A stretch of DNA of 34,571 bases from Desulfurellales bacterium (GTDB lineage: Bacteria; Campylobacterota_A; Desulfurellia; Desulfurellales; Hippeaceae): NCBI GenBank assembly GCA_027035885.1, contig JALVTR010000085.1, positions 1-34,571 on the forward strand, given 5' to 3'. Position numbers and translations under genes: made by a program. Positions 5,957 to 15,181 of the stretch are shown in pieces. The notes beneath the pieces are model-generated. The model ran no database searches. It saw nothing but the letters and a program-made list of their open reading frames with translations, and was not told the origin of the DNA. The first letter of the stretch is position 1. Each line of letters starts with the position of its first letter.

Positions 5957-6957
5957 AATGCCACCTCGTCAATGTTCAACGCCCTATGTTCCATGTCCTT
6001 TGCCTCGTTAAGGTAACTATCGCAGTGGCTCGCGGCAAACAACGTTTCTGGTCGCAAAAAACGCTTCATTTCCGGGTCCCTCAACCACTGTTGTGTTTTA
6101 ACGTCAATAACTTGTTTTAACTCATCTACTGTAAAACCTTCAGCTAACCTTGCTATAATGTATCTCTGAGTAGCTTTAGTTGTGTATTTAAACTTTTTGC
6201 CGGTCATAGAATTGAGATGGTCTATAACTTGCTTAACTTCAGATGTGTAATCAGTGGTCTTCTTTTTCCTGTGCTGCGAAAGCGAACTACTGGAGTCAAT
6301 ATCCTCGTGTAGCGTAGCGGTAGAGGATATTGTTGTTTCAGTAGTGTTTGTCCCTTTGTCATACTCAAGGGTATCCCTTTGTCTTACAATAGGATACCCT
6401 TTTGTCTTACAATAGGATATCTTTTCTATTTCAGTAGAAGAAGTTTTCGTTGATCCTTCAAGCGAGGTCGATATACCGCTTGTCGGTATATCGTTACCGA
6501 AGCTTGAGGTATCAACGAAAGGGTGGTGGGTGGGGTTAGTAAGGGCGTTATTGTGCGCTCCGCGAGATAATTCTTTTTTCTTTTTTACTATATCTTTATT
6601 ACTATATTCTTTATTACTAAGGGTGTCATAGTTTTCCGACATTCGTTTATCCGACATCCGATTTTCCGACAATGGTTTTTCGTATAAAATGTGATTATAT
6701 CCATTCCATTTTCCTTTCTCGTCTTTTAATGCAACCCTTGTAAGGAGTCTATGTTTTTCCAATTCTCTAATAGCTTCTCTAATAGCCGATTTACCCTCTT
6801 TCATTTGTTTTGATATTCGTTCAATACTAAATCGCCATCCATCTGGTTTGCTTTGCATATAAACCCATAATCCTTTTGCTTTCAAGGATAATTTTGGGTT
6901 GTTTAGAATTTCTGTTGGTATTTGTCCATACCTGCGTGCAATAAAAAGTTTACTCAT
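5953..6957 (-). CDS. Replication initiator-like protein: winged helix plus phage C-terminal domain (TIGR02220/PF09524)
   Basis: This is a 334-aa protein. Residues 1-95 form a winged-helix domain (...LSLKAKGLWVYMQSKPDGW...). Residues about 98-112 hold a five-residue repeat (SENRM-SDKRM-SENYD). Residues about 115-240 are a Ser/Thr-rich low-complexity linker. Residues about 245-325 match the conserved phage C-terminal domain (VIDHLNSMTGKKFKYT ... LRPETLFAA). Such proteins sit in phage replication modules and are likened to DnaD or lambda O. The DNA encoding the linker carries iterons and inverted repeats (6297-6520), so the gene probably contains the origin it binds. GGAGG precedes the ATG. Confidence 0.82.
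   Translation of the reverse strand: MSKLFIARRYGQIPTEILNNPKLSLKAKGLWVYMQSKPDGWRFSIERISKQMKEGKSAIREAIRELEKHRLLTRVALKDEKGKWNGYNHILYEKPLSENRMSDKRMSENYDTLSNKEYSNKDIVKKKKELSRGAHNNALTNPTHHPFVDTSSFGNDIPTSGISTSLEGSTKTSSTEIEKISYCKTKGYPIVRQRDTLEYDKGTNTTETTISSTATLHEDIDSSSSLSQHRKKKTTDYTSEVKQVIDHLNSMTGKKFKYTTKATQRYIIARLAEGFTVDELKQVIDVKTQQWLRDPEMKRFLRPETLFAASHCDSYLNEAKDMEHRALNIDEVAL
6297..6332. repeat. Inverted repeat IR1 in the initiator gene
   Basis: The perfect 10-bp arms CAATATCCTC (6297-6306) and GAGGATATTG (6323-6332) are separated by 16 bases. This is the outermost of three inverted repeats in the linker-coding segment. It has no role in protein structure that I can see, so a DNA- or RNA-level function is likely. 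Confidence 0.75.
6355..6423. repeat. Three tandem 23-bp iterons
   Basis: Copies begin with TTTGTC at 6355, 6378 and 6401, an exact 23-bp period. Copies 2 and 3 share 19 identical bases (6378-6396 and 6401-6419); copy 1 is degenerate. Because 23 is not a multiple of three, each copy is translated in a different frame. The conservation is therefore in DNA, not protein, as expected for initiator-binding iterons of a replication origin. Confidence 0.75.
6367..6401. repeat. Inverted repeat IR2 spanning two iterons
   Basis: The perfect 10-bp arms AAGGGTATCC (6367-6376) and GGATACCCTT (6392-6401) flank a 15-base loop. The arms coincide with the ends of iterons 1 and 2, so the iterons are also arranged as a palindrome. 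Confidence 0.75.
6445..6520. repeat. Large nested inverted repeat IR3 (76 bp)
   Basis: The outer 10-bp arms TTTCGTTGAT (6445-6454) and ATCAACGAAA (6511-6520), middle 6-bp arms TCAAGC (6458-6463) and GCTTGA (6502-6507), and inner 10-bp arms CGATATACCG (6469-6478) and CGGTATATCG (6484-6493) are nested around a 5-base loop. The element could extrude as a cruciform or fold in single strands, like a phage or plasmid primase-recognition or origin hairpin. Confidence 0.8.
6571..6620. other. AT-rich tract beside the iterons, candidate unwinding element
   Basis: About 50 bases consist almost wholly of A and T, with a tandem 'TTTATTACTATA'-like repeat around 6594-6617, immediately beside the inverted repeats and still within the initiator gene. 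Many origins pair iterons with such an easily melted tract. Assignment is by position only. Confidence 0.45.
6635..6670. repeat. 15-bp in-frame direct repeats (TCCGAC at 6635, 6650, 6665)
   Basis: Three TCCGAC boxes recur with a period of exactly 15 bases. Here the period is a multiple of three and encodes a five-residue protein repeat (SENRM/SDKRM/SENYD), so selection could act on protein, DNA or both. Confidence 0.55.
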
Positions 6958-10522: not shown

Positions 10523-10550
10523 ATTTTAATCCAAAAAAATAAAATGTCAA
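10523..10550 (-). promoter_or_regulatory. Early leftward promoter upstream of the ERF gene
   Basis: The -35 TTGACA (10545-10550) and -10 TAAAAT (10523-10528) have a 16-base spacer and read leftward; transcription would start near 10516, about 24 bases before the ERF start codon. An ATAAGTAT box overlaps the start site. Confidence 0.75.
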
Positions 10551-10568: not shown

Positions 10569-10606
10569 GGAAATAAAAAAAGCGGACTCCGTTAAGAATC
10601 CGCTTT
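10569..10606 (-). terminator. Rho-independent terminator ending the 10.6-10.9 kb RNA
   Basis: The arms AAAGCGGA (10579-10586) and TCCGCTTT (10599-10606) pair perfectly around a 12-base loop. On the minus strand they are followed by a T-rich run (TTTTTTATTT). The orientation terminates leftward transcripts coming from about 10902, upstream of the ERF promoter. Confidence 0.85.
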
Positions 10607-10719
10607 GACGTATAGCCCCGGTGAAGGCAAAGGGCCGAACAGCTTTGCCTTACCTACGTCATCTATAGTATATGCATTTTATTTTAAATTTCAAGTGTCC
10701 GTGTAAGATTTTGATTTGG

Positions 10720-10782
10720 ACATGGTGGCGCCTGTCAGCCAAAACAGAATATTTTGGCCCAGGCCACCCCACATGGTGGCGC
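10720..10782 (-). repeat. Duplicated 12-mer competing for one partner: possible bistable hairpin
   Basis: The 12-mer ACATGGTGGCGC occurs at 10720-10731 and 10771-10782. GGTGGC in either copy (10724-10729 or 10775-10780) can pair with the single GCCACC at 10763-10768. One option gives a compact 6-bp hairpin with a 6-base loop. The other gives a longer stem that also contains the 7-bp helix 10738-10744/10752-10758. The two are mutually exclusive. Confidence 0.7.
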
Positions 10783-10908
10783 TCTTTCACCGGGGCTATT
10801 TATTTTTTCTCGCTCCCCCTGTTCGGCCACGAGACGTTCGGTTAGGATGATATGCGTGGTGCAGTTACCTTGTGAGTGGAATCGAAAACAACTCCAAGGC
10901 CTAATAAT

Positions 10909-10936
10909 ACAATATTCCAAAATTGGATTTTGTCAA
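10909..10936 (-). promoter_or_regulatory. Leftward promoter of the structured RNA
   Basis: The -35 TTGACA (10931-10936) and -10 TATTGT (10909-10914) have a 16-base spacer. The start would be near 10902. The spacer contains a small inverted repeat, TCCAA-AA-TTGGA. It is back to back with the late promoter. Confidence 0.65.
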
Positions 10937-10967: not shown

Positions 10968-10995
10968 TTGACTTTTTAAGAATAAGTATTATAAT
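10968..10995 (+). promoter_or_regulatory. Late rightward promoter
   Basis: The -35 TTGACT (10968-10973) and a perfect -10 TATAAT (10990-10995) have a 16-base spacer. Predicted start near 11002 coincides with the first base of the first late gene's ATG, so the transcript may be leaderless. An ATAAGTAT box overlaps the spacer and -10. Confidence 0.78.
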
Positions 10996-11001
10996 TTAAA
11001 T

Positions 11002-11301
11002 ATGGAAGTTAGTATTAGCAAAAAAATATACGACTGGATAGACAAAAAAGGTGAGGCAGCCGATAAAATGGTTAGAGATTATAATGAAAGAAGGCAGAAT
11101 ATCGCTAATTTTAACGCACAGATGAGTGTTGAAGAAGAAAAAATGTTGCGAAAAATGTCTTCTTCCGAACGTGCTAAATATTTAAAAGCTAAAAAAGAGA
11201 TTTCTCTTACACCGGGTTTTAAATCTACAAAAGAGATGGAAGCAATGGGGGTAAAAGTAAATTTATTGCCAATTTACGAAAAGTTTAGGAATATGAAATG
11301 A
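11002..11301 (+). CDS. First late gene, 99-aa basic helical protein, possibly leaderless
   Basis: The 99-aa frame starts at 11002 without any Shine-Dalgarno sequence; the promoter's -10 ends six bases upstream. A shorter start at 11068, with AAGGTGAGG eleven bases before it, is possible. The protein is Lys/Glu-rich and helical, then has a segment LTPGFKSTKEMEAMGVK. It overlaps the portal start by ATGA. The position before the portal could suit a head-assembly or small terminase role, but nothing in the sequence proves it. Confidence 0.6.
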   Translation: MEVSISKKIYDWIDKKGEAADKMVRDYNERRQNIANFNAQMSVEEEKMLRKMSSSERAKYLKAKKEISLTPGFKSTKEMEAMGVKVNLLPIYEKFRNMK

Positions 11302-13558: not shown

Positions 13559-14241
13559 TGGCTAACCCAGCAGTCCCTGTTGTTTTTGCCAACATAGACC
13601 CCAGCACGTTGGCAACCAGAACAATAGGGACTAACAATGTTCCAGCCATAAACTTACAGAACTTAGACGATGATTTTAGCACTATATTGGCATTGTTTAC
13701 CGTTGACACTACCGTGCCGCCTTCTCCGCAGGTAGGAGCTTTGTTTTTCAACAGTAACGACACTACTTTTCAGGTTTTTGACGGATCGGTGTGGAGAGGA
13801 ATTAATGCTGACAAAACAGACGGTTTTGACGCATCTCAAACGCCAACAGCAAATACTATACCTGTAGCTGATGCCAATGCTCATTTGAACACATGGATAG
13901 CTCAAGGTGATGCTTCTGGTTTAGATGCTGATTTAGTGAGAGGGTTGCCTGCTGATTTTACAAGCTCTCTTATAGGCAATGGCTATCAAAAACTACCAAG
14001 TGGATTGATTATTCAATGGGGTTCTGTTAGTGTGTCGGTTTCTGCTAACACTGCTACTCAATGGGGTTGGACTTTGCCAATTGCATTTCCAAATGCTTGT
14101 CTTCAGGCATTTAGTTCGGCAGGAAATGATGTTACTGCATCAAGCACTACGGAAGTACTAACAACAACATCTATAACTGGATATTGTTATTTTGGTGCTA
14201 ATGCAACGCTTGTAATTAGAGTTTTTGCCATAGGCTATTAA
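13558..14241 (+). CDS. Tail fibre protein 1 (gp53-like C-terminal domain)
   Basis: This is a 227-aa fibre protein. The N-terminal half carries a shaft segment [20 protein letters not shown] (about 71-90). The C-terminal 90 residues start [14 protein letters not shown], continue [13 protein letters not shown] and end FAIGY, the pattern of the gp53-like receptor-binding domain. It would bind the host surface. It is paralogous to the next gene. The start overlaps the upstream stop (TAATG). It is short for a fibre, so it may trimerise as a tip on another fibre. Confidence 0.8.
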   Translation: MANPAVPVVFANIDPSTLATRTIGTNNVPAINLQNLDDDFSTILALFTVDTTVPPSPQVGALFFNSNDTTFQVFDGSVWRGINADKTDGFDASQTPTANTIPVADANAHLNTWIAQGDASGLDADLVRGLPADFTSSLIGNGYQKLPSGLIIQWGSVSVSVSANTATQWGWTLPIAFPNACLQAFSSAGNDVTASSTTEVLTTTSITGYCYFGANATLVIRVFAIGY

Positions 14242-14940
14242 GGAGGAATGAATGTACGCACGAATTGATTATACGATTTCGCCTACCGCACCAAAGAAAA
14301 ATGCACTTTATCTTGATACCGAGACACAAAGTTTTAAGCTTTTTGATGGGTCAGTGTGGAGAGGCATTAATGCAGACAAGTTAGATGGTATAGACAGCAC
14401 TCAATTCCAACGCAACGATACTGCTGACTTGAACATAGGAGTTTATGCTTCTGCTGGTGATGGAGCAAAACGAGTAACAAGATACATAGGATTAATAACA
14501 GATACTAAACCTGGACTTGTTTTATTTGCTAAAAAGTATGATGGGAGTAATTATTTACCTAAACAAGGGTTTATTGGAAAGGTTATAATATCAAGAGGAT
14601 ATGCTGCTGCATACAATTATACCGAAGAGTATAACGTTGTATGTGCTTCTGCTTATGCTTCCACTAAACTATTTATAAGCGGTAACTATTCTAATGCTTA
14701 TCTTGTTGAAGTTACTTACAATAATGAGCAATGGTATGGATTTTATAGCCCTGCGAAATCATCCAGAGCGGTCTGGATAGATGGATTTTTATATACTACT
14801 CAAGACCCAATTTTCATAGCTGATGCTTCTTCTTATACAGTTACTAAAGTTGATGGAAATGACTTCTATGTTAATCAAAATGTAGTTTGGAATAACGGTA
14901 ACACTCCTGTTAGCAAAGCGACTAATGGCTATCAAAAACT
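13978..14940 (+). repeat. Homologous blocks shared by the two fibre genes
   Basis: The 17-mer AATGGCTATCAAAAACT is identical at 13978-13994 and 14924-14940. The following 35 bases encoding [11 protein letters not shown], and the FPNAC and IAIGY segments, are also near-identical, with silent differences. The duplicated blocks could recombine to swap or delete fibre domains. Confidence 0.7.
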
Positions 14941-15181
14941 GCCAAGCGGGTTGATTATACAGTGGGGATATGGATATGTATCGGCTACTTCAACGGCGAC
15001 TATAACTTTTCCAATAGCATTTCCAAATGCTTGTTTGAATGTTGTTGCAACTGACGTTAATGCTCAATATGAATATAATACGGATGTAGGATCGTTAACT
15101 ACTACAACTTTTACTGCTTTAAACGGCAACTCCAATAGCACGTATGCTCATAATTTTTATTGGATAGCCATAGGTTATTAA
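14252..15181 (+). CDS. Tail fibre protein 2 (gp53-like C-terminal domain)
   Basis: This 309-aa fibre protein is built like its upstream paralogue: shaft motif [20 protein letters not shown], then a unique Tyr/Ser/Asn-rich central region (about 60-225) absent from fibre 1, then the domain [14 protein letters not shown] ... [13 protein letters not shown] ... WIAIGY. The central insert probably gives different receptor binding. The start at 14252 was chosen over ATG at 14248, which leads to an early stop. AAGGAGG is shared. Confidence 0.8.

Follow-up and report, generated by a model that had tools for sequence, protein, structure and literature searches.

Antisense RNA serves some viruses as a switch, and the locus considered here raises the question of whether a phage carries such a device in the non-coding stretch between its divergent early/replication and late operons, or whether that stretch encodes a single structured RNA. 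The window analyzed is a whole contig of 34,571 bp (C85), part of a 1.95-Mb genome assembly, and it carries tailed-phage genes in two divergent blocks. A preliminary description of the sequence had proposed a phage-encoded structural or regulatory RNA, bracketed by a promoter and a terminator and folded through complementary hairpin loops into a pseudoknot or kissing-loop complex. We found support for a structured or regulatory RNA that the phage encodes between a dedicated promoter and terminator, whereas the single-molecule part of that proposal is not the best reading. The best explanation, to which we give about an even chance, is that the minus strand encodes two tandem RNAs, A and B, with RNA B acting as an antisense regulator of RNA A.

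The argument starts from two perfect complementarities that can be read directly from the DNA, a 14-bp pair (windows b and b') and a 10-bp pair (windows a and a'), which exceed all others in the region in length. Both had been reported earlier, and we confirmed that they are exact, correctly placed, and in crossing order on the minus strand. No other perfect inverted repeat (arms ≤400 nt) across the 34.6-kb window is as long as the 14-bp pair; by contrast, about 20 other 10-bp pairs occur there, so a single 10-bp match is unremarkable. Among dinucleotide shuffles of the region, 0 of 3,000 contained a pair of ≥14 bp, and 5 of 3,000 contained two pairs that reached 10 bp. The 10-nt loop that forms window a', described earlier, is framed by a 9-bp AAGGCAAAG/CTTTGCCTT stem, and ViennaRNA predicts three weak pairs inside this loop at 37°C (0.6 kcal/mol) and an open loop at 70°C. 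The region folds better than its shuffles on the minus strand (z = −3.97) and on the plus strand (z = −3.88); because folding is similar on both, energy does not pick the strand, and the terminator and promoters do.

The minus-strand promoter and terminator said to bracket the region are both consensus matches. Between them we found a further promoter-like site (10694–10667), missing from the preliminary description and sharing its N16 class with the operon promoters. The pattern TTGACW-N16-TANNNT has five sites in the window against 0.9 expected, four of them in two non-coding hubs (7308−, 10550−, 10936−, and 10968+) and the fifth inside a coding region, and TTGANW-N16-TATAMT has three (7308−, 10968+, and 10694−) against 0.26 expected. 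In local shuffles, a site like the internal one arose in 9 of 20,000 with the strict pattern and in 225 of 20,000 with a looser one, counts to be read with the facts that the strict pattern was chosen post hoc, after the sites had been seen, and that AT-rich linkers yield promoter-like strings. The GC profile shows islands of 51% and 53% with an AT-rich gap of 21% between them, and the internal site predicts a start at ~10661, where the TGACGTA/TACGTCA helix that closes the downstream hairpin has its first base pair. It is the internal promoter-like site, the GC gap, and the coincidence of this start with the closing helix of RNA B that suggest two RNAs (Table 1).

Table 1. Features of the locus and its flanking gene blocks (positions in the window)
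Feature	Position	Strand	Description
Left gene block		−	Erf-like annealing protein, exonuclease, replication initiator (Rep), primase
Right gene block		+	Portal, major head protein, tail fibres, terminase
Leftward early/replication operon promoter	10523..10550	−	TTGACA-N16-TAAAAT, just beyond the terminator
Intrinsic terminator	10579..10606	−	Strong; 12-bp stem, T-run
RNA B (predicted)	~10661–10572	−	~90 nt; two-part hairpin, then terminator
Window b' of RNA B	10612..10625	−	TTCACCGGGGCTAT, mostly in 3' internal loop 10613–10623
Window a' of RNA B	10633..10642	−	CTGTTCGGCC, apical loop
Internal promoter of RNA B (predicted)	10667..10694	−	TTGAAA-N16-TATACT, in 21% GC linker
RNA A (putative)	~10901 to at least 10700	−	~200 nt, 51% GC; 5' end placed from the promoter
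Possible 27-aa ORF	10691..10774	−	Weak; starts 11 nt past window b
Strong central hairpin of RNA A	10724..10768	−	Predicted fold
Window b of RNA A	10786..10799	−	ATAGCCCCGGTGAA
Window a of RNA A	10819..10828	−	GGCCGAACAG, loop of TCTCG/CGAGA hairpin (10830–10834 / 10808–10812)
RNA A promoter	10909..10936	−	TTGACA-N16-TATTGT, 10/12 consensus
Rightward late operon promoter	10968..10995	+	TTGACT-N16-TATAAT

In the predicted fold of RNA B, the two stems of its hairpin are TGACGTA/TACGTCA (10655–10661 / 10606–10612) and AAGGCAAAG/CTTTGCCTT (10643–10651 / 10624–10632), and windows a' and b' are each exactly complementary to their counterpart in RNA A. Both RNA B windows are predicted to be open or affordable to open, which argues for an antisense pair: opening a' would cost ~0.6–1.2 kcal/mol and a' and b' together ~10, and freeing the two target windows of RNA A another ~10 kcal/mol. 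Set against predicted duplex energies of −18.0 and −26.1 kcal/mol, these values give, by our own sum, a net of about −23 kcal/mol for the A:B complex before initiation and topology. The best target of a' and b' across the window is the RNA A strand, which outranks even the trivial complementary strand of the locus, and beyond the locus the genome holds no second copy of window b at ≤1 mismatch. Transcription of RNA A may continue into RNA B. Its central hairpin is flanked by a 12-nt direct repeat (GCGCCACCATGT on the minus strand; 10771–10782 and 10720–10731) that allows competing pairings with GGTGGC.

In the mechanism we propose, RNA A would start near 10901 and RNA B near 10661 from its own promoter, with the shared terminator ending RNA B. 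The two RNAs would meet first through loop a' of RNA B and loop a of RNA A, after which b' would form a stable duplex with window b. Such pairing would silence or remodel RNA A and, through it, may influence a regulatory choice where the early/replication operon begins, by read-through of the terminator or by translation of a tiny leader ORF past window b. Some features sit poorly with this scheme: windows a-b and a'-b' run in the same order, so the two duplexes cannot make one continuous antisense helix; RNA A is without a convincing ORF; and the terminator and a new promoter separate RNA A from the early operon.

The same evidence can be read as one ~330-nt structured RNA, which we consider somewhat unlikely. 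On this view the 14-bp helix would close a multibranch domain within one molecule, the AT-rich stretch would be a mere linker, and a:a' would add either an H-type pseudoknot or a kissing contact between molecules. At 37, 55, and 70°C alike, the minimum-free-energy structure predicted for the full transcript contains the 14-bp helix; the minus strand folds better than its shuffles (z = −3.97), and the unit as a whole lies between promoter and terminator. However, the internal promoter-like site and the GC gap split that unit, favoring antisense pairing in trans over the one-molecule pseudoknot or oligomer of the preliminary description. Geometry points the same way: by our own estimate, once the 9-bp B stem and the 14-bp helix have both formed, loop a' and the base of hairpin a are ~23 bp apart, and the linker of ~8 nt seems too short for a kiss in cis. 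A pseudoknot obtained by opening the B stem would sacrifice a good helix. We prefer pairing in trans because, as long as the B stem stays closed, a 10-bp kiss inside one molecule looks sterically unlikely. The analogy drawn earlier to phi29 pRNA, ROOL, and GOLLD gained no positive evidence: GOLLD, ROOL, and OLE have in common with the locus a non-coding RNA with potential kissing loops, but the locus is much shorter than GOLLD, ROOL, or OLE and has nothing that suggests oligomerization (PMC12286853), the Rfam models of the three gave no match, and a GOLLD/ROOL-like cage is without support. That the RNA looks undescribed did hold, in that no Rfam family matched the window or the region above threshold; the L20 leader and GA-cis models were rejected with scores far below gathering.

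A type I toxin-antitoxin system, in which RNA A would be the mRNA of a 27-aa hydrophobic peptide and RNA B an antitoxin acting upstream of its start codon, appears improbable. The ORF starts right past window b and stops at promoter B, and its codon score resembles that of small phage genes; that score is 0.16 per codon, not decisive at such a length, and an irrelevant 33-aa ORF on the opposite strand scores equally. A well-placed Shine-Dalgarno sequence is missing, and the peptide is just mildly hydrophobic and gave no Pfam match. We likewise see little chance that the locus acts as DNA, as a replication or packaging site of GC-rich hairpins at a divergent promoter hub, or that the complementarity is accidental, even though the locus sits where operons diverge, the plus strand folds nearly as well, and the 10-bp match on its own is within chance; the 14-bp pair, unseen in 3,000 shuffles, argues against this, as do the placement of terminator and promoters all on one strand and a region with no iterated origin-like repeats of at least 22 nt.

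For the antisense pair, the design matches that of P1/P7 C4 and P4 CI. In P1/P7 C4 RNA, the a' loop pairs upstream and the b' loop pairs at the ribosome site (PMC5320573). RNA B resembles it as a short (~77–90 nt) phage RNA with windows a' and b' and an a target upstream of the b target (PMC5320573), and in the present locus two loop windows indeed face two targets, with a upstream of b. In C4, b lies over the ribosome-binding site; here the 27-aa ORF begins 11 nt downstream of b, and its Shine-Dalgarno sequence is poor. RNA B also differs in lying downstream of its target and having a predicted promoter of its own, whereas C4 is processed from a precursor, with RNase P acting at the P1 hairpin. 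The C4 covariance model (RF01695) returned no match at the gathering threshold or at E ≤ 10, and membership in that family was rejected on this ground. In P4, CI RNA pairs with targets on either side of it, one upstream and one downstream, and the premature termination that follows blocks the replication genes (PMC4825925). The likeness here is a small RNA that lies in a non-coding region before the replication operon, has a terminator, and is complementary to a site farther upstream on its own transcript (PMC4825925). The differences are the predicted promoter of RNA B, a second promoter past the terminator, and the second target: no GC-containing partner of at least 10 bp resembling seqC was found downstream, and with that target absent, we rejected membership in the P4 CI family. 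At most, then, the locus would work like C4 or CI, and we file it under neither.

DNA searches for a homologue of the RNA in its own and 60 other genomes, phages, and plasmids gave just short chance or promoter-like matches. Scanning viral contigs for the a'-gap-b' pattern produced 27 matches, with flanking stems common to none of them, and two exact-pattern scans produced zero. Relatives of the phage were sought through portal, Erf, and MCP searches, which gave none, and through a terminase (TerL) alignment, which gave 80 loci; the terminase is up to 41% identical to that of an uncultivated viral contig located in this alignment, the best value in it, and 35% identical to that of Hydrogenobaculum phage 1. 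The nearest syntenic relative, G061, has a portal of 41% and a head protein of 42% identity, and a small gene before the portal is weakly similar in the two phages. Its divergent region contains two back-to-back promoter-like sites in only ~160 bp, with the RNA absent, suggesting that the RNA was either gained in the present lineage or lost in that of G061. The searched collections hold no homologue, and a single sequence, which offers no covariation to read, limits every functional claim made here.

PHROG scans recognized no integrase or repressor on the contig, and a lysogeny switch is therefore not indicated; a search for tRNA and tmRNA found none, and the assembly yielded no 16S sequence. 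The first late gene begins 7 nt past the −10 box (10990–11002), and the late mRNA may thus be leaderless. Two adjacent tail-fibre genes share a duplicated C-terminal segment (13978–14100 / 14924–15034) with 79–93% DNA identity. Within the replication initiator gene lies a palindromic element of ~40 nt (6460–6501; CGATATACCG...CGGTATATCG) that shares 90–93% identity with stretches of G007 and G002, two same-genus genomes. A CRISPR-spacer origin of the short ~40-nt matches in related genomes was rejected, as no repeat array surrounds them. The early genes at 661–2813 (a Dam-like methylase, a thioredoxin-like protein, and small ORFs) have 72–75% DNA identity to two plasmid-like contigs (C69 and C108) of one same-genus genome, suggesting exchange within that host group; the related contigs in G002 have only early genes in common with the phage and are plasmid-like in appearance. 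The last 180 nt of the contig (34392–34571) are 93% identical to the start of another contig of the same assembly (C29), whose ORFs have a conjugation-related look.

A more far-reaching interpretation, which we regard as rather unlikely, is that the locus is a phage antisense switch, related to neither C4 nor CI, that evolved independently in a poorly studied bacterial lineage. In it, a small RNA would bind the RNA encoded just upstream by two same-order windows, with the pairs forming in cis as a pseudoknot or in trans, and would couple read-through from promoter A to self-repression. If the antisense pair is real, it would be a further, sequence-unrelated instance of the C4/CI design, in which a tiny RNA reads two windows of a neighbouring transcript, and it would suggest that phages reinvent this design at the point where early and late operons diverge.
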